Shown: positions 4,121 to 34,005 of the stretch, one piece after another | Position numbering within the stretch: the stretch's first letter is position 1 | Layout of the letters: every line of letters begins with the position of its first letter | NCBI RefSeq assembly: GCF_003260995.1 | Contig: NZ_CP030040.1 | Span: 2,961,176 to 3,025,175, forward strand | DNA length: 64,000 nt | Reading direction: 5' to 3' | Source: Acetobacterium sp. KB-1 | GTDB taxonomy: Bacteria; Bacillota; Clostridia; Eubacteriales; Eubacteriaceae | Position numbers and translations under genes: made by a program | Notes under the pieces: model-generated | The model's database searches: none | What the model was told of the DNA's origin: nothing | What the model saw: only the letters and a program-made list of their open reading frames with translations

Positions 4121-4236
4121 TATAATAACATCATAAGATAAAAACACAGTTCTGGTTGGTAGTCCAGACGCGGTTGATACCGTCAGTAACCTGCCTCCTA
4201 AGGTTGTCCGTTCTTTGTCACACATTCTAGGAGGAA
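4121..4236 (+). ncRNA. Structured 5' leader of yjdF, probable yjdF (azaaromatic) riboswitch
   Basis: After a TATAAT (4121-4126) the leader holds small hairpins in a row: CTGG/CCAG (4152-4166), CGGT/ACCG (about 4171-4182) and AACCT/AGGTT (4188-4205). They are followed by the Shine-Dalgarno CTAGGAGGAA, 7 bases from the ATG. Genes of the yjdF family are commonly preceded by the yjdF riboswitch class, which senses azaaromatic compounds. The position, size and following gene fit. I have not matched the conserved core to the published consensus, so the class is inferred from the gene and the leader architecture. Confidence 0.55.
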
Positions 4237-11826: not shown

Positions 11827-11843
11827 GTAGCTAATTTAGAAAT

Positions 11844-11929
11844 TGGGGAGCTTATGCATTTAGGCTGAGAGGAAGTAAATCGCTACTTCGACCCATGCAC
11901 CTGATACGGATAATGCCGGCGTAGGGAGA
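11844..11929 (+). ncRNA. TPP riboswitch (THI element)
   Basis: The conserved parts of the thiamine pyrophosphate aptamer can be read in order: GGCTGAGAGG (11863-11872, the pyrimidine-sensing arm), ACCCATGCACCTGAT (11891-11904), and GGATAATGCCGGCGTAGGGA (11908-11927, pyrophosphate-sensing arm). The helper arm AAGTAAATCGCTACTT lies between. It precedes an intrinsic terminator and the thiamine salvage genes, so TPP binding should favour termination. Confidence 0.95.
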
Positions 11930-11941
11930 CCATCGAAATCG

Positions 11942-11968
11942 ACTGTGCATTCGTGTACAGTTTTTTTT
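11942..11968 (+). terminator. Riboswitch-controlled terminator
   Basis: CTGTGCA and TGTACAG form a 7-bp stem (one G-U pair) around a TTCG tetraloop, followed by T8. It lies 12 bases after the TPP aptamer and about 90 bases before thiM, and is the likely expression platform. Confidence 0.88.
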
Positions 11969-23073: not shown

Positions 23074-26000
23074 GTGAGTGATATGGCGGGTCAGGATAAT
23101 TCAGGGTTGGTAAAACAGAATAAATTATTTGAAGCTTTTTTTGAAATGGTACCGGATCTTTTGTTTTTAACGGATGCACAGGGGATAATTCTGGAATATC
23201 GGGCAAAAAAAGCCTCGGATCTTTACATCCCGCCAGAAGCATTTATAAACAAAAAAATCAATACTGTTTTGCCGGCGAATGTCAATGACTTATTTACCCA
23301 TGCCATGCTAATGGCCAGAACGACAGGTCAAATGCAGACCTTTGAGTATGATTTGTCCAATTCCGATGGGAAGCATCACTTTGAATGTCGCTTAAGTTGG
23401 TTGGCTGAAAGTGAAAATTTTGTGGAAGTGATTCGGGATATATCCGAGCGCTATCAGATGGAGGAAGATCTTAAGAATGCTCGAAAATTGTTAGAACAAC
23501 GTTTAGTGGAACGTGAAGTCGAGCAAAAATTTATTGTTGACCAACTTTATCTTCATACCCAGCTGATTCGAGAAATCAGTCAGATGGAGTCGGGGATCAA
23601 TGGTGATATTAATCGGTTTGCAAAAGAAATAACTGAGCTTTTGGGTAATCGCCTGGAAACGGATCGGGTTTCTATCTGGCAATATAAAAATGAAATGACA
23701 ATGATGGAATGTCTGGACCTTTATGTAAAAAAAGAAAAAACCCACATCCGAAAAATGACGATGAACATGGTCGATCAGCCGCTGACATTTGAGCATCTCA
23801 TCAAAAACAGATATATGATTGTTGATAAAGAATCGGCTGAACCGCAGGAAAAGGATTACTGGCAGGCTTATATGAAACCGTTAGGTGGAACCACTCTACT
23901 GGTTTGCAGTATTTTATGCAATGGCAGGTCGATTGGTTCGATTGGCTTTATGCATGTAAATAAAAACCATGCGTGGGGAAGTGACGAGATCACCTTTAGC
24001 TGTCATATTGCTGATCAAATCGGAACGGCTTTTTTAAACCAGGAACGCATTGAGATTACAAAGGCACTGCGCCAAAGTGAAGCTTTTTTAAATCGTGCGC
24101 AGGAGGTTTCAAAAACTGGACACTGGCATTTTGACATCAATGCGAACAATTTGACCTGGTCTAATGAAACCTATCGTATTTTTGGTGTCGATATGGGGAA
24201 GCCGCAAACCTATGAAACGTATATGGATCTTGTCTATCCAGAGGATCGTAATAAAATCGCTGAAACTTGGCAGGAAAAATCGGTGCAGGGTCGGTCGTTT
24301 ACCATACTTCATCGAATTATTTCAGGGGATGAAGTGCGCTGGGTGGAAGAACGATCAGAATTTGAGTTTGATTCTGATGGCGCGCCTGTCGCCAGTTGGG
24401 GAACCGTTGCTGATGTAACCGAGAAGATGAAATATCTGGAGGAATTGGAGAGTTATCAGAAGCATCTTGAGGAAATGGTTGTTTCTCGCACTACCGAGTT
24501 GGAAATGGCAAAACTTGAAGCAGAAGCTGCCAGTCAGGCAAAAAGTTCGTTTTTATCTAATATGAGTCATGAAATTCGAACGCCTATGAATGCAATCATC
24601 GGCCTGGCTCATCTAATTAAGCGTGATCCTCTAACCATGCGGCAGGAGGAACAGCTTGGTAAGTTGACCGAGGCAGCGAATCACTTGTTGCAGATCATAA
24701 ATGATGTGCTGGATCTTTCGAAAATAGAGGCCGGAAAAATGCGAATGGATGCCCATGATTTTGAGCCCGACCGGGAAATCAACAGCGTGTGTAATATTTT
24801 GGGTGATCAAGTGGCTAAAAAAAATCTCAATTTACTGGTGGATGTTGATCATATTCCGACGGTTTTGCGGGGAGATTCGGTTCGCTTTGGACAAATTTTG
24901 CTTAATCTAATGAGCAATGCAGTGAAATTTACTGAAACAGGGTGCATCAAGGTTGTGGCCCGGATTATGAAGCAGGAAAAAAAACAGATTCGACTGCGGT
25001 TTGAAGTGTGGGATACTGGGATTGGGATGTCAAAAGAACAGCTAAAAAACCTGTTCCAGGATTTTGTCCAGGCTGATGAATCAATGACCCGTTTGTATGG
25101 GGGAACTGGTCTGGGGTTGGCGATTAGCTATCGTTTGGTAAAATTTTTAGGTGGGGAAATTGGGGCTAAAAGTGAGCTGGGTCAGGGAAGTCAGTTCTGG
25201 TTTGAGTTGCCCTTTGAAATATCGACAGCGCTTCCTAAAAATAGAATCAGCATGAAATCTTCGAAGGAAATGCGGGTTCTGGTGATTGATGACATGCCAG
25301 AAGCCCGGGATCTGATGATCAGTATGCTATCTGATTTTGGAATCCAGTGTGAGGCGGTCAGTTCGGGAAGTGAAGGATTAGCCGCGGTGGTGCAAGCTGA
25401 CCAGATGATGAACCCCTATCGACTGGTATTGATGGATCTCAAAATGCCGGTTATGGATGGTATTGACACAGCACTGATGCTTCAATCGCTGGAACTGAAA
25501 ACCAGGCCGACAGTTTATCTGATTACCGGCTATGGCAATCAGATATCCTATGAAGAAGCGCAGCGTGCCGGAATCAGCCGGATTCTGATCAAACCGATGA
25601 CACCATCAACCCTTAATGATGCATTAATGGAACTGCTTGAAAATAATCGCGTATCAAAGATGCCATCATCGCTAAACGAATTAGAGGATCATTTGAAAAC
25701 TTACGAGCAGATGAGGATACTGATTGTTGAGGATAATCTGATTAATCAGGAAATTGTCGGGCAGCTTCTGGAACCCTTTAAACTTGTGATTGAGTTAGCC
25801 CAAAATGGTCAGGAAGCAATTGATAAAATTAAACAAGCTAAGTTTGATTTGATTTTGATGGATGTTCAGATGCCAGTAATGGATGGGTTGGAGGCGACGG
25901 CACGGATTAGAGCGATGCCGGGTTGGGAAACGGTACCTATTTTAGCGATGACGGCCAATGCTTTTGAAGAAGATCGGCGTCTTTGTATTGAGGCAGGGAT

Positions 26001-26757
26001 GAACGACCATCTGGTAAAACCGGTGGAACCGGAGATTTTATACAAATGTTTGATCAAGTGGCTGCCGATAAAAAAAACTGAAGGTGAAAATGAAGCGCCA
26101 GAAAATAGTGATAAAAATGAAACACCGAGAAAGAATTCATTAGCAGAACGAGAGCAACAGAATCGGTTAGAAGTCCTTTGGCAGGTGGAAGGATTGAATG
26201 TGGAAGCTGGTCTGAAAATTCTTGGTGGTGATGCCGCCGTCTATTTGCGGTTGATCCGGCAGTTTGGTCAAAAATGTCAGACGGACGCAACAAATCTCCT
26301 GAAGCAGGTGTCCGAGCAGGATGACCAAAGCATTATGCAAACGGCTCATTCAATTAAGGGTGTGGCTGGAAATTTGGGTGCTGAAAAAATACAGGAGCAG
26401 GCGGCTGAATTGGAACAGACAATAAAGGCCCAGTCGTTAAACGATCAATCTGAGAAGTTAATTAATAACTTTGTCGCAGAATTAAGACATTTTGCGGATG
26501 CTTTGCCGAGAGAAAGAGTTTTCTCCGAGAACCAACAAAATGACAAAGGAAACGATGCTCAAATTGATACAATTAAGAACAAGTTGGCAGTTTTGCTTGA
26601 AAATAATGACACTGACGCTGATGATTTATTTGAGAAGCACAAAGACTTGTTGATTGTTAACTTAGGCGATGCGGGATTTGATCTGGAAAGACAGATTCAT
26701 GAATTTGATTACCAGGATGCTCTGAAGACTTTGCGACAGGTTCAAAAGAAAAAATGA
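23074..26757 (+). CDS. Hybrid sensor histidine kinase (PAS-GAF-PAS-HisKA-HATPase-REC-REC-HPt)
   Basis: 1227 residues, with no transmembrane segment seen. Order: PAS (about 15-135), GAF-like region (about 170-325), PAS (about 335-450), coiled coil, HisKA with His499 in NMSHEIRTPMNA, HATPase (NLMSNAVKF, GTGLGLAIS), receiver 1 with Asp788, receiver 2 with Asp930, and HPt with His1092 (TAHSIKGVAGN). All phosphorelay residues are present. The likely final acceptor is the neighbouring HD-GYP response regulator. Start GTG 23074, with AGAAGGGG upstream. The cytoplasmic GAF/PAS layout suggests an internal ligand or redox signal. Confidence 0.92.
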   Translation: MSDMAGQDNSGLVKQNKLFEAFFEMVPDLLFLTDAQGIILEYRAKKASDLYIPPEAFINKKINTVLPANVNDLFTHAMLMARTTGQMQTFEYDLSNSDGKHHFECRLSWLAESENFVEVIRDISERYQMEEDLKNARKLLEQRLVEREVEQKFIVDQLYLHTQLIREISQMESGINGDINRFAKEITELLGNRLETDRVSIWQYKNEMTMMECLDLYVKKEKTHIRKMTMNMVDQPLTFEHLIKNRYMIVDKESAEPQEKDYWQAYMKPLGGTTLLVCSILCNGRSIGSIGFMHVNKNHAWGSDEITFSCHIADQIGTAFLNQERIEITKALRQSEAFLNRAQEVSKTGHWHFDINANNLTWSNETYRIFGVDMGKPQTYETYMDLVYPEDRNKIAETWQEKSVQGRSFTILHRIISGDEVRWVEERSEFEFDSDGAPVASWGTVADVTEKMKYLEELESYQKHLEEMVVSRTTELEMAKLEAEAASQAKSSFLSNMSHEIRTPMNAIIGLAHLIKRDPLTMRQEEQLGKLTEAANHLLQIINDVLDLSKIEAGKMRMDAHDFEPDREINSVCNILGDQVAKKNLNLLVDVDHIPTVLRGDSVRFGQILLNLMSNAVKFTETGCIKVVARIMKQEKKQIRLRFEVWDTGIGMSKEQLKNLFQDFVQADESMTRLYGGTGLGLAISYRLVKFLGGEIGAKSELGQGSQFWFELPFEISTALPKNRISMKSSKEMRVLVIDDMPEARDLMISMLSDFGIQCEAVSSGSEGLAAVVQADQMMNPYRLVLMDLKMPVMDGIDTALMLQSLELKTRPTVYLITGYGNQISYEEAQRAGISRILIKPMTPSTLNDALMELLENNRVSKMPSSLNELEDHLKTYEQMRILIVEDNLINQEIVGQLLEPFKLVIELAQNGQEAIDKIKQAKFDLILMDVQMPVMDGLEATARIRAMPGWETVPILAMTANAFEEDRRLCIEAGMNDHLVKPVEPEILYKCLIKWLPIKKTEGENEAPENSDKNETPRKNSLAEREQQNRLEVLWQVEGLNVEAGLKILGGDAAVYLRLIRQFGQKCQTDATNLLKQVSEQDDQSIMQTAHSIKGVAGNLGAEKIQEQAAELEQTIKAQSLNDQSEKLINNFVAELRHFADALPRERVFSENQQNDKGNDAQIDTIKNKLAVLLENNDTDADDLFEKHKDLLIVNLGDAGFDLERQIHEFDYQDALKTLRQVQKKK

Positions 26758-26800: not shown

Positions 26801-26891
26801 GAATTAAAAGTTTAGAATGACAGATAAACATTTAAAGTGCTTAAGAGTCGTGGCGATTATGTTAGAAACCGGTTAAATTTGCAAATATTTC

Positions 26892-26920
26892 TTGATTTTC
26901 ACAATTTTTTATAGTACAAT
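26892..26920 (+). promoter_or_regulatory. Promoter of the polyamine operon leader
   Basis: TTGATT (26892-26897) and TACAAT (26915-26920) with a 17-base spacer. Transcription would start near 26927, giving a leader of about 470 bases before speD. Confidence 0.65.
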
Positions 26921-26926
26921 TCGACT

Positions 26927-27341
26927 CGAATGACAGAAATAGATTTATGTCTATTTGGCGTATTCATAAGCAAAATTTATGGATACAGCAAAGAATTATT
27001 TTGACCATTTTTTTATCTGAATAACTCGGGGATAAAGAAATAAAATGCCATACGGACAGCTAGGTCAAATGCCGATTGGCAACTTTCGTTGCCTTATTGA
27101 TTGAGTATTAGCTCAAATTTTATAAGTTGGTTACTTAAAACCGTGTGCGTTTTTGCACATCACACTTGTGAAACAATCAATAAGAGTAGTAAAAGTAAGT
27201 TCTTGCTATATAGACTCTAATTTCTGCGTTTTGGATCATTAAATAGACGGTGCGGTCATGCGCTCGTTTAATACAAATCAGTAGAAATAAACTCAAGTGG
27301 ATGAACAGCAGATGCTGATGGATCACTTGGGTTTTTTGTTT
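26927..27341 (+). ncRNA. Long structured leader of the polyamine operon, unclassified (candidate riboswitch/attenuator)
   Basis: Between a promoter and speD lies about 470 bases without a convincing ORF but with clear RNA structure: a wobble-paired stem GTATTCATAA/TTATGGATAC (about 26960-26986); hairpin GGCAAC-TTTC-GTTGCC (27078-27093); a long-range 11-bp perfect pairing (27093-27103 with 27174-27184) enclosing smaller hairpins such as TGTGC/GCACA; and finally an intrinsic terminator (27291-27341). CACTTG at 27163-27168 is complementary to CAAGTG in the terminator's 5' arm, so an antiterminator is possible. I do not recognise a known riboswitch class. Confidence 0.6.
27291..27341 (+). terminator. 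Attenuator-type terminator before speD
   Basis: ACTCAAGTG (27291-27299) pairs with CACTTGGGT (27324-27332, G-U wobble included), with inner hairpin CAGCA/TGCTG, followed by GTTTTTTGTTTT. It sits about 54 bases upstream of the speD start, inside the operon leader, so it should decide whether the operon is transcribed. Confidence 0.82.
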
Positions 27342-27394
27342 TATTAAATCATTACAGCACAATTACAATGCAAAAAATGGAAACGGGGTGGATT

Positions 27395-28189
27395 ATGGAT
27401 AATAAATTAAAGTTGAATGGTTTTAACAATTTGACAAAATCGTTGAGTTTTAACATTTACGATGTATGCTATGCCAAGAGCGAGCGCGAACAACGGGACT
27501 ATATTGCCTATATTGATGAGCAGTATAACTCGGACCGCTTAACTAAAATTTTATATCGTGTTACTGAGATGATTGGGGCCCGGGTGCTCAACGTATCCAA
27601 GCAGGATTATGATCCTCAGGGGGCGAGCGTCACCTTTTTAATTGCCGAAGAAACCTTTTTAAGAGAATATCGGGAAGACTCTGTTAAACAGACCGATTTA
27701 CAGGGCGATACGGTGGTGGCCCATCTGGATAAAAGCCATGTAACGGTCCATACTTATCCGGAATATCATCCGGACACTTCTATTGCTACCTTTCGGGTGG
27801 ACATTGATGTGGCTACTTGTGGCGAAATTACGCCTCTGAGCACTCTGGATTTTCTGATTGGCAGTTTTGATTCGGACATTATTACCATGGATTATCGGGT
27901 CCGGGGATTTACCCGGGATGTCAGCGGAAAAAAACTCTTTATGGATCATAAGATCACCTCAATCCAGGATTATGTTGATGATAAAACACTAAAGGAATAT
28001 GACGCCATTGATATTAACGTTTATCAATCCAATCTTTTTCATACTAAGATGATGTTAAAAGAAATCATCCTCCAAAATTATCTCTTCAATACGGATGCTT
28101 ATGAGCTGCCGCCACGAACGCGGCTACAGATTACCGAAAACCTGCGTCGCGAAATGATCGAAATTTTCAGCGGTAGTAACGTGTATTAA
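27395..28189 (+). CDS. speD: S-adenosylmethionine decarboxylase proenzyme
   Basis: 264 residues from the ATG at 27395, close to the length of the E. coli-type (class 1A) enzyme. The self-cleavage site that creates the pyruvoyl group is [12 protein letters not shown], with Ser114. The enzyme makes decarboxylated SAM, the aminopropyl donor for SpeE, encoded in the same operon. The upstream in-frame ATG (27368) is less likely, since GGGGTGG lies at the right distance from 27395. It is the first gene after the terminator-bearing leader. Confidence 0.93.
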
Positions 28190-28240
28190 CAAATAAGCGA
28201 CTAATTGTTGCCAGTTTTTATGCAGACGATGATCCGGATT

Positions 28241-28297
28241 GTAGGGGCGGGTATTACCCGCCCGGAAATTTGGCGGGTGGTTGATAACCGCCCCTTG
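28241..28297. repeat. REP-like two-hairpin palindromic element
   Basis: GTAGGGGCGGGTATTACCC and the following CGCCC form one GC-rich hairpin (28244-28263); GGCGGGTGGTTGATAACCGCC forms a second (28272-28292). The borders AGGGGCGG and CCGCCCCT are mutually inverted. A related single-hairpin copy is at 31590-31613. The GC richness contrasts with the surroundings, as for dispersed REP/BIME-like repeats. Confidence 0.7.
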
Positions 28298-28368
28298 AGT
28301 TATTTAAACAGCCGCTGCCTATTATTGCTGCTAAGCTGCTGTATTCAGATTAGGGAAGGAATAAAAAC

Positions 28369-29823
28369 GTGCCAAAATTAAATCAGGAACGGATGCCGAT
28401 ATTGGCGGCACTTAATGAGTTTAAGAGAAATCGGCTGGTGCCCTTTGATGTGCCCGGCCATAAACGGGGCAAGGGAAATCCCGAATTAACGGAGTTTTTA
28501 GGGGAACGTTGTATGACGCTTGATGTCAATTCGATGAAGCCGCTGGATAATCTTTGCCATCCGGTTTCGGTGATCAAAGAGGCTGAGGAACTGGCGGCGG
28601 ATGCCTTTGGGGCCAAGCAGGCGTTTTTTATGGTCAATGGCACAACATCTGCCGTTCAGACGATGGTGCTGTCGGCCTGTAAAAAAGGGGAAAAGATTAT
28701 TCTGCCCCGAAATGTCCACCGCAGCGTCATTAATGCGATGATCCTGGGTGGAGCTATCCCGGTTTATGTAAATCCCGAAACCAACCATGAAATCGGTATT
28801 TCATTGGGGATGACCCTTGTAGCGGTAGAAGAAGCGATCCGGGAGAACCCCGATGCCAAAGCGATCTTAGTCAACAATCCCACCTACTATGGGGTTTGTT
28901 CAAACCTGAAAGCGATCACCGAACTGGCTCACGCCGCCGGTATGCTGGTGCTGGCGGATGAGGCCCACGGTACCCATTTCTATTTTGGCGAAAATATGCC
29001 CATCAGTGGGATGGCGGCGGGAGCGGATATGGCATCGGTCAGTATGCATAAATCCGGTGGGTCGCTGACTCAAAGCTCCTTTTTACTCGTGGGTGAGGGC
29101 ATGAACGCTGGTTATGTGCGCCAGATTATCAATCTGACCCAGACCACCAGCGGTTCCTATCTGCTGCTTTCCAGCCTCGATATTTCGCGCAAAAATCTGG
29201 CGGTGAATGGCAAACAAATCTTTGCCAAGGTAACTGAAATGGCCCAATATGCCCGGGATGAAATTAATCAGATCGGTGATTACTACGCTTACTCGAGAGA
29301 GTTGATTAACGGCGATACTGTTTATGACTTTGATGCCACCAAGCTGTCGATTAATACCCTTCATGTCGGTCTGGCTGGAATTGAAGTGTATAGTATTCTT
29401 CGTGATGAATACGACATTCAGGTGGAATTTGGCGATGTCGGCAATATTCTGGCCTATATTTCAGTGGGAGACAGTCGGCGGAATCTGGAACGTCTGGTTT
29501 CAGCTCTGGCCGAAATTCGTCGGATCTATAAAAAAGATAAGGCTGGGATGCTGCAATATGAATACATTAACCCCGCGGTGGCTGTCGCCCCTCAGGAAGC
29601 CTTTTATGCCGATAAGGAAGCCTTACCGCTGGAAAAAAGCGGCGGTCGGATCTGTAGTGAATTTGTAATGGCTTATCCGCCGGGGATTCCGATTCTGGCA
29701 CCCGGGGAAAGAATTACGACAGAAATTCTTGACGCCATTGAATACCTAAAAGATAAGGGCTGTTTTTTAACCGGTCCCGAAGATATGGAAATAAAAAATC
29801 TCAATGTGCTAAAGGAGGATTAA
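28369..29823 (+). CDS. speA: Arginine/lysine/ornithine decarboxylase, probably arginine decarboxylase
   Basis: A 484-residue PLP enzyme of the Orn/Lys/Arg decarboxylase class (Bacillus SpeA length). N-terminal VPFDVPGHKRGKG, ADEAHGTHFYFG with the PLP-contacting Asp and His, and SMHKSGGSLTQSS with Schiff-base Lys228. The C-terminal region has PPGIPILAPGERIT. The presence of agmatinase in the operon indicates arginine as substrate (agmatine to putrescine); lysine decarboxylase is the alternative. Start GTG 28369 with GGAAGGA upstream. Confidence 0.85.
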   Translation: MPKLNQERMPILAALNEFKRNRLVPFDVPGHKRGKGNPELTEFLGERCMTLDVNSMKPLDNLCHPVSVIKEAEELAADAFGAKQAFFMVNGTTSAVQTMVLSACKKGEKIILPRNVHRSVINAMILGGAIPVYVNPETNHEIGISLGMTLVAVEEAIRENPDAKAILVNNPTYYGVCSNLKAITELAHAAGMLVLADEAHGTHFYFGENMPISGMAAGADMASVSMHKSGGSLTQSSFLLVGEGMNAGYVRQIINLTQTTSGSYLLLSSLDISRKNLAVNGKQIFAKVTEMAQYARDEINQIGDYYAYSRELINGDTVYDFDATKLSINTLHVGLAGIEVYSILRDEYDIQVEFGDVGNILAYISVGDSRRNLERLVSALAEIRRIYKKDKAGMLQYEYINPAVAVAPQEAFYADKEALPLEKSGGRICSEFVMAYPPGIPILAPGERITTEILDAIEYLKDKGCFLTGPEDMEIKNLNVLKED

Positions 29824-30675
29824 ATGGAACTATGGTTTTCAGAAAAACATACCCCCAGCGTCAAATTTTCCATTCAGGTGGATCGTCAGCTTTACTGCGG
29901 ACAAAGTGAATTTCAGCGGATTGATGTCTTTGACTCCAAAGAATTTGGCCGTTTTTTAACCCTGGACGGGTTTATGATGCTGACCGAAAAAGATGAATTT
30001 ATCTATCATGAAATGATGGTGCACATTCCCATGGCGGTTCATCCCGCTCCGAAAAAGGTGTTGATTATCGGCGGCGGTGATGGTGGTGCCATCCGCGAGC
30101 TGGTGCGTTACCCTTCGGTTTTACACATTGATCTGGTCGAAATTGACGAGCTGGTGGTGGAAGTCTGCAAAACGCATCTGCCCCAAACCGCCTGCTGCTT
30201 TGCCGATGAGCGGTTAACGGTCCATTATCAGGATGGTCTGAAATTTATTCGCCGTTGTGAAAATGAATATGACCTGATCATTGTCGATTCGACCGATCCC
30301 TTTGGTCCTGGCGAAGGCCTGTTTACCAAAGAGTTTTATGGTAATTGCTATAAGGCACTAAAAGAAGACGGGATCATGGTCAATCAGCACGAAAGTGCAT
30401 TTTATCTGGATGATGCCGTGGCGATGCAGCGGGCCCATAAGCGCATTGTCGAGTCCTTTCCGATCAGCCGGGTCTATCAGGCTCACATCCCCACCTATCC
30501 CTCAGGACACTGGCTGTTTGGCTTTGCCTCAAAAAAATACCATCCAATTGAGGACTTAAAGGCCGTGAAATGGAATGCCCTGGGTTTTAAAACCCGCTAT
30601 TATAACACCCGGTTGCATGTGGGGGCCTTTGCTTTGCCAAACTATGTGGAGGAACTGTTAAAAGATGTTGAATAA
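29824..30675 (+). CDS. speE: Spermidine synthase (aminopropyltransferase)
   Basis: 283 residues. N-terminal beta domain (MELWFSEKHTPSVKFSIQ), SAM-like nucleotide-binding loop IIGGGDGGAIRE, DLVEIDELVVEVCK, the catalytic region LIIVDSTDPFGPGEGLF, and HESAFY. It transfers an aminopropyl group from decarboxylated SAM to putrescine. The start is three bases after the speA stop, with AAAGGAGG inside the speA end; the end overlaps speB by 11 bases. Confidence 0.93.
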   Translation: MELWFSEKHTPSVKFSIQVDRQLYCGQSEFQRIDVFDSKEFGRFLTLDGFMMLTEKDEFIYHEMMVHIPMAVHPAPKKVLIIGGGDGGAIRELVRYPSVLHIDLVEIDELVVEVCKTHLPQTACCFADERLTVHYQDGLKFIRRCENEYDLIIVDSTDPFGPGEGLFTKEFYGNCYKALKEDGIMVNQHESAFYLDDAVAMQRAHKRIVESFPISRVYQAHIPTYPSGHWLFGFASKKYHPIEDLKAVKWNALGFKTRYYNTRLHVGAFALPNYVEELLKDVE

Positions 30676-31513
30676 AAATATTGAGACTTTTTTAGGTTGT
30701 GACAACGACTATGGAGAATCGGGCATTGTCGTTTTTGGCGCCCCCTTTGATTCCACCACATCCTTCCGTCCCGGTACCCGTTTTGCCAGCAAAACGATGC
30801 GGGGGGAATCCTACGGATTAGAAACCTACAGCCCCTATCAGGATAAGGATCTGGAAGATTTAGCTATTTTTGACGGCGGTGATCTGGAGCTCTGTTTTGG
30901 TGATACCCAAAAGGCGCTGGCAGTGATTGAAAGTTATACCACCCGGGTATTAAGAGATGAAAAGACCCCAGTGATGATTGGCGGTGAGCATCTGGTGACC
31001 CTGGGAGCAGTTCGGGCAGTGGCCCGGAAATATCGGGATCTCCATGTGATCCATTTTGATGCCCATGCTGATCTGCGCGATGATTATCTGGGGGTGACCC
31101 TGTCCCATGCGACGGTGCTGCACCGGGTCTGGGATTTAATTGGCGATAACCGGATCTATCAATTCGGGATTCGCTCAGGCGAACGCAGTGAGTTCCAGTG
31201 GGGCAAAGATCACGTCATCACCCAGAAATTTAATTTTAATGGTCTGGCTGAAGTGGTCAAAAAACTACAGGGCAAGCCAGTCTATTTCACCCTCGATCTG
31301 GATATATTAGATCCGTCCGTTTTTCCAGGCACCGGTACCCCGGAGCCTGGCGGTGTCGGTTTTTTAGAGCTGCTTGAAGCGATCCAAAAAATCGGAGAAC
31401 TGAATATTGTCGGTTGTGATATTGACGAGTTATCGCCGGTCTATGACCAGAGCGGTGCTTCCACTGCGGTGGCCTGCAAGGTGTTGCGGGAACTCTTATT
31501 GGTAATTGGCTAA
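30665..31513 (+). CDS. speB: Agmatinase (ureohydrolase)
   Basis: 282 residues of the arginase/agmatinase family. The binuclear Mn site is visible in IGGEHLVTLG, HFDAHADLRDDYLG and TLDLDILDP, and EPGGVGFLELLEAI follows. It converts agmatine to putrescine and urea, completing arginine-to-putrescine conversion with SpeA. The start lies inside the end of speE. Confidence 0.92.
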   Translation: MLNKNIETFLGCDNDYGESGIVVFGAPFDSTTSFRPGTRFASKTMRGESYGLETYSPYQDKDLEDLAIFDGGDLELCFGDTQKALAVIESYTTRVLRDEKTPVMIGGEHLVTLGAVRAVARKYRDLHVIHFDAHADLRDDYLGVTLSHATVLHRVWDLIGDNRIYQFGIRSGERSEFQWGKDHVITQKFNFNGLAEVVKKLQGKPVYFTLDLDILDPSVFPGTGTPEPGGVGFLELLEAIQKIGELNIVGCDIDELSPVYDQSGASTAVACKVLRELLLVIG

Positions 31514-31589
31514 TCGTTGTGGATGATCACCGATAGGCAAAAGGACAAACACTCTCTTCACCATTAAGATAGCGTGTAATGATAGAATA

Positions 31590-31613
31590 GTAGGGGCGAG
31601 CATTGCTCGCCCG
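31590..31613. repeat. REP-like palindromic hairpin
   Basis: GTAGGGGCGAGCATTGCTCG and the following CCCG form a perfect 8-bp GC-rich stem (31594-31601 with 31605-31612). It shares GTAGGGGCG...CGCCCG with the element at 28241 and lies in the other large gap of the same operon, between speB and the dehydrogenase gene. Confidence 0.7.
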
Positions 31614-31652
31614 AACTTTGATAGTACTTATAAATAACAGGAGGAACAAATT

Positions 31653-32852
31653 ATGGGAAAAGCATTAATTATCGGTTGCGGCGGCGTAGCCAGTGTGGCC
31701 ATTCATAAATGCTGTCAAAACAGCGAGGTGTTTTCAGAAATCTGTATTGCCAGCCGGACCAAAAGCAAGTGCGATGCACTAAAAGCAAAACTTGATGGCG
31801 GGGCGACAAAAATCACCACTGCCCAGGTCAATGCTGATCACGTTGATGAGCTGATTGCGCTGATTGAAGAGGTAAAGCCCGACGTAGTATTAAATTTGGC
31901 TCTGCCTTATCAGGATTTGACTATTATGGATGCCTGTCTGGCCACCAAAACCCATTACGTCGATACGGCCAATTACGAGCCCGAAGATACCGCCAAATTT
32001 GAATATAAATGGCAGTGGGAATACCGGGAACGCTTTGAAAAAGCCGGAATTACGGCACTGTTGGGGAGCGGCTTTGACCCGGGTGTGACCGGCGTTTTCT
32101 CGGCCTATGCGATGAAACATCAATTTGATGAGATTAATTACATCGATATTCTCGATGCCAACGCCGGTGATCATGGCTATCCCTTTGCGACCAACTTCAA
32201 TCCGGAAATTAATATTCGGGAAGTCACTGCCAACGGCAGCTATTGGGAAGAGGGACAGTGGATTGAAACCGAGCCGATGGAAATCAAGCGGGTTTATAAT
32301 TTTCCCGAAATTGGAGCTAAAGACATGTATCTGCTCCACCACGAGGAATTGGAATCACTGGGACAAAATATCAAGGGGATCAAACGGATTCGCTTCTTTA
32401 TGACCTTTGGACAAAGCTATCTAACCCATCTCAAATGCCTGGAAAACGTCGGCATGACCGCCATAGAGCCGATTGAATTTGATGGCAAGATGATTGTACC
32501 GCTGCAGTTTTTAGCCGCTGTACTACCAGATCCTTCGACCCTGGGCCCCCGAACCAAAGGAAAAACAAATATCGGTTGCATCTTCCAGGGCAAAAAAGAG
32601 GGTAAGGATAAAACCTACTACCTTTACAATGTCTGTGATCACGAAGAATGCTACAAAGAGGTTGGTTCTCAGGCGATCTCTTATACGACCGGAGTACCAG
32701 CGATGATCGGTGCGATGTTGGTGATGACCGGCCAGTGGCAAAAACCCGGTGTTTACAATATTGAAGAGTTCGATCCCGATCCATTTATGGAAGCGTTAAA
32801 CAAATGGGGATTGCCCTGGCAGGAAAGTTTTGCACCAGAGCTGGTTGATTAA
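31653..32852 (+). CDS. Carboxynorspermidine/carboxyspermidine dehydrogenase (saccharopine dehydrogenase family)
   Basis: 399 residues. The N-terminal Rossmann motif is IIGCGGVASVAIHKC, followed by ICIASRTKSKCDAL, VVLNLALPYQDLTIMDACL, DTANYE and the family signature LGSGFDPGVTGVF. It condenses a diamine with aspartate semialdehyde reductively (putrescine gives carboxyspermidine). The partner decarboxylase follows directly. The assignment is by family and operon context; saccharopine dehydrogenase proper is unlikely in this operon. Confidence 0.88.
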   Translation: MGKALIIGCGGVASVAIHKCCQNSEVFSEICIASRTKSKCDALKAKLDGGATKITTAQVNADHVDELIALIEEVKPDVVLNLALPYQDLTIMDACLATKTHYVDTANYEPEDTAKFEYKWQWEYRERFEKAGITALLGSGFDPGVTGVFSAYAMKHQFDEINYIDILDANAGDHGYPFATNFNPEINIREVTANGSYWEEGQWIETEPMEIKRVYNFPEIGAKDMYLLHHEELESLGQNIKGIKRIRFFMTFGQSYLTHLKCLENVGMTAIEPIEFDGKMIVPLQFLAAVLPDPSTLGPRTKGKTNIGCIFQGKKEGKDKTYYLYNVCDHEECYKEVGSQAISYTTGVPAMIGAMLVMTGQWQKPGVYNIEEFDPDPFMEALNKWGLPWQESFAPELVD

Positions 32853-32868
32853 GGATGGTCAAACACGG

Positions 32869-34005
32869 ATGGAATTAAAGGACGCCTTCAAGGAGCTGCC
32901 CACCCCCTGCTATCTTGTCGATGAAAGCCTGCTGATTAAAAACTTAAAAATTCTCGACCAGGTTCAAAAAGCCACGGGTTGTAAGATTTTACTGGCTCAA
33001 AAAGCTTTTTCGATGTTTTCGCTTTACCCCCTGATCGGTCGCTACCTGGCCGGCACCACGGCCAGCGGACTCTTTGAAGCCCGCCTGGGTCATGAGGAAA
33101 TGGGTGGTGAAACCCATGTCTTTGCCACCGCCTACCGGGAAGATGAGTTTGAGCAAATCACTAAACTCTGTGACCATATCGTTTTTAATTCCTTTAACCA
33201 GTGGCAAAAATACAAGGATGCTGCACTCGAAGCCGGCCGGGAATGCGGGATTCGGATCAATCCGGAATGCTCCACTCAGGATCACGCCATTTATGATCCC
33301 TGTTCACCGGGATCAAGGATGGGGGTAACCCGGGCCCAGTTTGTGCCGGAGCTGCTTGAAGGGATCAGTGGTCTGCATTTTCATACCTTGTGCGAACAGA
33401 ATGCCGATGCCTTGGAACAAACCCTGAAAGCGGTTGAAGAACAGTTTGGCGAATTTCTCCCGCAGTTGAAATGGCTCAACTGCGGGGGTGGGCATCACAT
33501 CACCCGGGATGACTATGATGTTGATAAACTGATTGCTACCATCAAGCGGATTCAGGAAACCTACGGGCTAAAGGTCTATCTGGAACCGGGCGAAGCAGTG
33601 GCTCTTAACACCGGGTTTCTGGTGACGACGGTGTTGGATTTAGTTGATAACGGGGTTCACAACGTTATCCTCGATACCTCCGCCGCCTGTCATATGCCGG
33701 ACGTGCTGGAAATGCCCTACCGGCCAACTATTATTGGGGCCGCCTTGCCGGGTCAAAAACCCTTTACCTATCGACTGGGCGGACCGACCTGCCTGGCCGG
33801 GGATATTATCGGTGACTACGCCTTTGATGAGCCGCTTAAAATTGGGGATCGACTGGTATTCTGTGACATGGCCATTTATTCGATGGTTAAAAATAACACC
33901 TTTAACGGTATGAATCTCCCCGCGATTGCCATATTTACCCAGGAAAAAACCATCCAGATGGTGAAACAGTTTGGATATATGGATTTTAAAAACCGATTGT
34001 CTTGA
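32869..34005 (+). CDS. nspC: Carboxynorspermidine/carboxyspermidine decarboxylase
   Basis: 378 residues, an alanine-racemase-fold PLP decarboxylase. KDAFKELPTPCYLVDESLL opens the protein, the Schiff-base Lys is in ILLAQKAFSMF, HFHTLCEQ and NCGGGHHITR line the site, and the C-terminal block has LGGPTCLAGDIIGDYAF. It decarboxylates carboxyspermidine to spermidine (or the nor-homologue). The ATG at 32869 is chosen because AAGGATGG lies upstream; a TTG at 32830 would overlap the dehydrogenase gene. Confidence 0.9.
   Translation: MELKDAFKELPTPCYLVDESLLIKNLKILDQVQKATGCKILLAQKAFSMFSLYPLIGRYLAGTTASGLFEARLGHEEMGGETHVFATAYREDEFEQITKLCDHIVFNSFNQWQKYKDAALEAGRECGIRINPECSTQDHAIYDPCSPGSRMGVTRAQFVPELLEGISGLHFHTLCEQNADALEQTLKAVEEQFGEFLPQLKWLNCGGGHHITRDDYDVDKLIATIKRIQETYGLKVYLEPGEAVALNTGFLVTTVLDLVDNGVHNVILDTSAACHMPDVLEMPYRPTIIGAALPGQKPFTYRLGGPTCLAGDIIGDYAFDEPLKIGDRLVFCDMAIYSMVKNNTFNGMNLPAIAIFTQEKTIQMVKQFGYMDFKNRLS

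Follow-up and report, generated by a model that had tools for sequence, protein, structure and literature searches.

Leader between a histidine kinase gene and a polyamine operon

What kind of RNA precedes the polyamine operon of Acetobacterium sp. KB-1, and what does it respond to? In the window, the stretch of 64,000 nucleotides of contig NZ_CP030040.1 that was analyzed here, a leader (26892-27394) is flanked by the gene of a hybrid histidine kinase (23074-26757) and by an operon that encodes SpeD, an Orn/Lys/Arg decarboxylase, a spermidine synthase, an arginase-family protein of the agmatinase type, a saccharopine-dehydrogenase-type protein and an nspC-type decarboxylase. Judged by its place and its relatives, the saccharopine-dehydrogenase-type gene encodes a carboxyspermidine dehydrogenase. 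The operon (27395-34005) holds both spermidine routes, speD/speE and dehydrogenase/nspC. A preliminary description, made from the letters of the window, had regarded the leader as a long structured RNA of no known class, with a good promoter and a terminator, controlling this operon. Its coordinates were all right on direct reading of the sequence, and the 11-bp pairing that it pointed out, CTTATTGATTG (27093-27103) with CAATCAATAAG (27174-27184), is perfect. The genome is a single contig of 3.99 Mb with one copy of the RNA. Elsewhere in the window, Rfam models of the azaaromatic (yjdF) riboswitch (4128-4226, + strand, 81.9 bits) and the TPP riboswitch (11834-11945, + strand, 58.3 bits) matched.

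Rfam describes part of the leader as a small RNA

Positions 27002-27075 matched Rfam family RF02440, 'Streptococcus sRNA SpF59 (ldcC RNA)', with 51.8 bits, above the gathering score of 37.2. The label 'unclassified' therefore had to be given up for the first domain of the RNA, which belongs to a family that Rfam types as an sRNA, with no ligand named. No other match on the same strand, including the SAM family and T-box, was obtained for 26850-27450 at E values up to 1; a match to Atu_C9 on the opposite strand was rejected as chance (15.4 bits versus a gathering score of 40). RF02440 is a 54-nt model typed Gene/sRNA, whereas the RNA in the window is about 300 nt long, lies in cis and has a terminator behind it. 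In an Rfam scan of 17 diverse loci, seven matched RF02440 and ten (L054, L102, L105, L110, L129, L140 and L175-L178) did not, so that, judged from these sequences, the family seems to model a peripheral domain that is absent in some lineages. L054, L102, L105, L110, L129 and L140 have the RNA core without the RF02440 domain, and the Rfam model misses them.

We take SP0916 of pneumococcus to be the lysine decarboxylase gene. In published work, the F59 RNA (also srn235, SN20 or Spd_sr49) is an sRNA that lies between SP0915 and SP0916 and has a length given as 82 to 327 nt, which fits a terminated leader; it is listed with a lung phenotype. One paper names the gene cadA, without the SP0916 tag. 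The word 'polyamine' is absent from two of these sRNA reports that were searched for it. A full-text search of the literature accessible here returned no riboswitch description of the RNA and did not reveal where the alias 'ldcC RNA' comes from. The alias shows that somebody had already connected the RNA with ldcC.

The RNA family is widespread in Bacillota

RF02440 was present in 16 of 61 relatives and exceeded its gathering score in 18 genomes of a phylum-wide sample of 398. When the matches were aligned, conservation extended about 145 nt past the Rfam model, to ...GAGTAGTAAAAGT..TTGCTATATAGACTCT. Scanning GTDB species genomes with a pattern of this 3' hairpin gave at least 119 stretches, a set biased towards an intact hairpin E; among 32 full-length loci found by RF02440 alone, 26 carry the exact pattern. 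The matches listed include the genera Faecalibacterium, Blautia, Gemmiger, Paenibacillus, Neobacillus, Heyndrickxia, Kurthia and Phascolarctobacterium, which belong to the classes Clostridia, Bacilli and Negativicutes. The pattern had no match in viral contigs, and blastn with the window element returned nothing in phage records and one match in plasmid records, on a 2.7-Mb Paenibacillus replicon.

R1, a covariance model of 149 positions for the core, found the RNA in 16 of the 61 relatives and in 24 of the 398 genomes, namely the 18 with RF02440 and six more; some of its source loci came from the scanned sample, and their recovery is by construction. Its four weakest matches (L175-L178, 49-54 bits) are absent from the model and all precede speD. 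The leader is a member of a widespread regulatory RNA family that has been catalogued only in part.

Several copies depart from the common form. L175 and L178 (around 1550-1670), both before speD, are very short: they keep ACTTGTGAA...AATAAGAGTAGTAAAAGT..TTGCTATATAGACTCT, lack P2, hairpin A and the P3 5' strand, and may represent either a minimal switch or a decaying copy. A genome of the same genus (G006) has a second, divergent copy with an altered hairpin E, also before speD (L194, the same site as L002). L019 also has a c-di-GMP-I riboswitch (2514-2605, + strand, 78.4 bits), at a distance of about 1 kb.

The leader folds into a pseudoknotted RNA of about 300 nt

The interval between promoter and speD is occupied by a folded RNA of about 300 nt (about 26922-27238) and then a terminator (Table 1). 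Its structure was traced manually on the alignment before the pairs were counted; RNAalifold, given a MAFFT alignment of the core, returned no more than part of P3 and hairpin E. The full RNA comprises a closing helix, P1, a long-range pseudoknot and nine further helices, with compensatory changes in most of them. The segment 26927-27240 folds at -89.2 kcal/mol. Its dinucleotide shuffles averaged -60.0 ± 4.8 kcal/mol, and none of the 100 reached the energy of the segment (z = -6.06), so an ordinary untranslated stretch was rejected. The free minimum-energy fold of the leader in the window contains P1, P2, P4, the terminator, seven of the eight tested P3 pairs and seven pairs of the pseudoknot strand; hairpins A and E are missing from it. 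The leader is therefore long and structured, as had been proposed, and the structured RNA is larger than that proposal, extending to P1 and the pseudoknot.

Table 1. Features of the leader RNA, its promoter and its first gene, in window coordinates
Feature	Position	Strand	Evidence
Promoter: -35 TTGATT 26892-26897, 17-nt spacer, -10 TACAAT 26915-26920	26892-26920	+	sequence and relatives
P1, 5' strand, core CAGAAAT 26934-26940	26922-26941	+	partner-exchange test
Pseudoknot, 5' strand, AGCAAAGAATT	26987-26997	+	partner exchange, run length, A2 pair counts
P2 domain: P2 27000-27006/27063-27069, P2b 27007-27017/27031-27041, loop with CCATACGGACAG	27000-27069	+	Rfam, A2
Hairpin A, GGCAAC/GTTGCC, 27078-27083/27088-27093	27078-27093	+	A1 double changes, 6 of 6 pairs
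P3, 27095-27103/27174-27182, enclosing hairpin B, P4 and hairpins C and D	27095-27182	+	A1 counts
Hairpin B	27103-27105/27112-27114	+	double changes on A1
P4, TTTTATAAGT 27118-27127 / ACTTGTGAAA 27164-27173; 3' strand is the proposed switching strand	27118-27173	+	A1 counts
Hairpin C	27129-27132/27139-27142	+	double changes on A1
Hairpin D	27145-27148/27155-27158	+	double changes on A1
CACTTG, able to pair in P4 or, as antiterminator, with terminator CAAGTG 27294-27299	27163-27168	+	complementarity
Hairpin E, AGAGT 27183-27187 / ACTCT 27214-27218	27183-27218	+	nearly invariant on A1
Pseudoknot, 3' strand, AGTTCTTGCT, in hairpin E loop	27198-27207	+	pairs with 26987-26997
P1, 3' strand, core ATTTCTG 27220-27226	27219-27238	+	partner-exchange test
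Intrinsic terminator with T-run	about 27289-27338	+	-19.6 kcal/mol; relatives
Ribosome-binding site of speD, ACGGGGTGG	27383-27391	+	by eye
speD, first controlled gene	27395-28189	+	Pfam AdoMet_dc, 54.5 bits (cut-off 25)

Pairing was counted on two alignments: A1, a core alignment of 69 sequences out of 94 non-redundant cores, and A2, with 46 of 55 sequences, which covers the pseudoknot, P2, P2b and an inner P2 stem. On A1, 92.6% of cells pair, compared with 37.5-43.1% when partners were slid, and double changes occur in 18 pairs, compared with 9.1 ± 1.3 in shuffles (0 of 500 as high). P3 is 99.5% paired, with no double changes, and P4 has 98.3% of cells paired, with double changes in two of its ten pairs. 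Because P3 and hairpin E hardly vary, covariation tests both of them poorly; by eye, the divergent loci L176 and L194 have possible compensatory forms of hairpin E. On A2, 88.0% of cells pair, compared with 23.4-49.4% after sliding, and double changes are found in 117 cells, compared with 41 in shuffles (0 of 500), while the count of pairs with a double change, 10 versus 8.3, was not clearly above the shuffles (62 of 500 as high). All five P2b pairs have double changes, and pseudoknot pair 17/355 is UA in 20 sequences, GC in nine, AU in five and GU in five.

P1 and the pseudoknot were examined by exchanging partners among copies, using 92 of 150 loci with a script-placed P2, reduced to 72 distinct copies; about ten of these loci (for example L027, L066, L094, L102, L119 and L153) have a misplaced P2 and were kept as noise. 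With their own partners the P1 strands reached -11.48 kcal/mol in this alignment-free test, compared with -8.49 ± 0.27 kcal/mol after exchange, and the pseudoknot strands -8.99 versus -6.96 ± 0.24 kcal/mol, both beyond all 300 permutations, which ignore relatedness. The uninterrupted run of the pseudoknot was 7.49, compared with 6.16 ± 0.16 and a maximum of 6.65 in 1000 such permutations. An inner stem of hairpin E that competes with the pseudoknot has zero double changes, and covariation links the pseudoknot strand to the 5' linker, so the inner stem is not claimed. These results supply, from A1, A2 and the P1 and pseudoknot tests, the covariation among relatives that the preliminary description had made its own decisive check.

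The variation among copies also bears on a further explanation, in which translating a short frame in the leader causes attenuation or the leader senses tRNA as a T-box does. A short frame, ATGCCGATTGGC..., was seen by eye inside the window element, where it occurs by chance, but its ATG is not conserved, the lengths of loops and hairpins vary irrespective of frame, and the Rfam search at E values up to 1 returned no T-box; we give this explanation almost no credence.

The RNA precedes polyamine genes at all classified sites

Genes behind the RNA were tallied for 157 loci, which represent 151 distinct sites; 146 have enough downstream DNA, and the remaining five have at most 152 nt. The tally omits L001 and L002 (the L012 and L194 sites), L008 and L017 (where the contig stops within the RNA), duplicate sites and L191, which also lies before speD. 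At 146 of 146 sites the next gene is a polyamine gene on the same strand, beginning 82-472 nt past the RNA: speD at 64, a Lys/Orn/Arg decarboxylase of the ODC/LDC/ADC fold at 41, a carboxyspermidine-dehydrogenase-type gene at 23 and potA at 18. The RNA does not, therefore, behave as a stand-alone sRNA gene, and control of a polyamine operon, as first suggested for the window, agrees with the genes at these sites. Eight of ten tested PotA proteins reached a curated NCBIfam cut-off, either for a spermidine/putrescine ATPase or for potA; two more are truncated where the locus ends and had the same best model. In eight dehydrogenase-first loci with 5.5-7.9 kb downstream, nspC is present and speD, speE and the decarboxylase are absent from that DNA; speD- and speE-type genes are located elsewhere in seven of seven such genomes tested. 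The common denominator of the four gene classes is polyamine supply.

The leader might be bound by a protein, such as an RNA-binding antiterminator, instead of a metabolite. Large conserved leaders are in general able to bind proteins, but no regulator gene is common to the loci within the classified downstream DNA, and the size, pseudoknot and wide conservation of the RNA would be more like those of metabolite aptamers. We regard a protein ligand as improbable.

Promoter, terminator and a conserved antiterminator complement

Place and hexamers of the promoter were confirmed; on its own sequence it is weak rather than good, with 9 of 12 positions matching and an average of 3.1 such sites in shuffles of the region. 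In relatives, a promoter with at least 10 of 12 matches was found in 46 of 72 distinct copies, compared with 4.3 of 72 in mononucleotide shuffles, at a median of 52 nt upstream of P2, so that transcription probably starts near the P1 strand. The terminator before speD likewise stood up: it folds stably, runs into T's and is kept in relatives, where a hairpin of -10 kcal/mol or better with a T-run lies between RNA and gene at 139 of 140 sites, compared with 21-33 when these stretches are dinucleotide-shuffled. A simple terminator scanner with a loop limit of 8 nt missed the true terminator and listed only hairpin A. Since this scanner missed the terminator and the window promoter is weak taken alone, support for both comes from the relatives.

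The complementarity of CACTTG to the 5' arm of the terminator was also confirmed, and it is general: the conserved ACUUGUG segment makes at least six contiguous pairs with the terminator 5' arm at 99 of 128 sites (speD, 41/54; decarboxylase, 30/37; dehydrogenase, 22/23; potA, 6/14). The controls were at first seven hand-picked offsets and later all 43 along the RNA, of which ACUUGUG is the maximum; the next, at +40, reaches 50 of 128 and the others 35 or fewer. Offset +40 is the strand of hairpin E and the pseudoknot, which at those 50 sites complements the terminator arm too. Exchanging terminators among loci lowered the mean antiterminator run only from 6.61 to 6.39 ± 0.09 pairs, as expected because the ACUUGUG segment is nearly fixed. 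Single loci do co-vary, with GCUUG opposite CAAGC in L031 and AAACUUG opposite CAAGUUU in L005.

At eight of the 14 tested potA-type sites (L041, L067, L108, L135 and others), the terminator has no CAAGT antiterminator partner. In Paenibacillus copies (L022, L043, L051 and others), an upstream TTGGAAAG can pair, by eye, with a local CTTTCCAA or with CTTTCC past the RNA; perhaps this is a second switching helix.

A trans-acting small RNA, as filed in Rfam, would be a terminated leader that base-pairs elsewhere. Its own promoter and terminator would suit such an RNA, as would the pneumococcal sRNA annotation, which is listed with a lung phenotype. The RNA nevertheless always stands in line before polyamine genes, and an antiterminator complement at 99 of 128 sites makes sense in cis only. 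We consider a purely trans-acting RNA very unlikely; an additional role in trans may exist beside the role in cis.

A proposed polyamine-responsive OFF switch

The leader combines a conserved, covarying structure before metabolically related genes with a terminator/antiterminator platform, as a riboswitch does. We have high confidence in its cis-regulatory role and its architecture. It is most likely a cis-acting, pseudoknotted riboswitch of about 300 nt that binds a polyamine, with spermidine as first and putrescine as second candidate, and acts as an OFF switch by ending transcription ahead of the operon.

With little polyamine available, ACUUG (within 27163-27168) would pair with CAAGU of the terminator 5' arm (27294-27299); the antiterminator pairing would block the terminator, and polymerase would continue into speD. 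With ample polyamine, the fold that binds it would keep ACUUGUGAAA (27164-27173) in P4, the terminator would form and transcription would end before speD. Because ACUUGUGAAA also forms the 3' strand of P4, the P4 and antiterminator pairings are mutually exclusive, and a ligand that stabilizes P4 would free the terminator; from this we infer the bound state and the direction of the switch.

Among the ligands first listed (a polyamine, SAM, decarboxylated SAM or arginine), a polyamine is favored because copies precede potABCD and SAM-independent spermidine operons; the other three are less favored. We infer direct binding and the identity of the ligand, with moderate confidence that the leader senses polyamine directly and with lower confidence that the ligand is spermidine rather than putrescine. 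The same cis leader could instead respond to SAM, decarboxylated SAM, methylthioadenosine, arginine, lysine, agmatine or cadaverine, since the two genes that most often come first, speD (64 of 146 sites) and the decarboxylase gene (41), encode enzymes that use SAM or a basic amino acid. Against this, polyamine import by PotABCD (18 copies) and the dehydrogenase-nspC branch (23 copies) make no direct use of SAM, arginine or lysine, and the Rfam search at E values up to 1 gave no SAM-family match. One argument, that decarboxylated SAM is beyond the reach of dehydrogenase-first genomes, failed, as speD- and speE-type genes occur in 7/7 and decarboxylated SAM is made there; the case against SAM-type ligands is weaker for it, and we slightly lowered the standing of the polyamine reading and raised that of this alternative, which we still judge unlikely.

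Polyamine riboswitches have long been sought. On the polyamine reading, the family is probably the main natural class of them: an aptamer of about 300 nt with a pseudoknot, unrelated to SAM-I, that sets polyamine synthesis and import in many Bacillota, has so far been known as an sRNA-labeled fragment and has reduced forms without the Rfam domain in some lineages. Genes of both synthesis and import would then share one candidate switch, the pneumococcal sRNA with the lung phenotype would be recast as a terminated leader, and the RF02440 model, now 54 nt, should be extended to about 300 nt. A further question is how a folded RNA distinguishes one polyamine from a large pool that is loosely bound to RNA.

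Comparison with known polyamine RNAs

Other RNA motifs precede polyamine genes. The potE and odc1 motifs (PMC8632094) and the speF motif (PMC11477304) are reported from Veillonella or alphaproteobacteria and are weakly supported or uORF-based; these descriptions set them apart from the RNA in the window, for which Rfam gave the one same-strand family described above. The validated bacterial class found in print is the SAM-I-derived spermidine riboswitch (Salvail et al. 2023, PMC10853860), which turns OFF ldcC, speE, speB and similar genes by termination, has a four-stem SAM-I fold and is narrowly distributed, with 13 representatives in its alignment; the present family is far commoner. Both are terminator-bearing leaders of polyamine genes, and they would work alike. 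Unlike the SAM-I-derived RNA, the RNA in the window has different helices and its family is also found before potABCD. A SAM-I variant was rejected because of these helices and because 26850-27450 gave no SAM-family match in Rfam at E values up to 1; by the tests made, the RNA lies outside the SAM-I-derived class. The same authors state that there must surely be more classes of polyamine riboswitch (PMC10853860).
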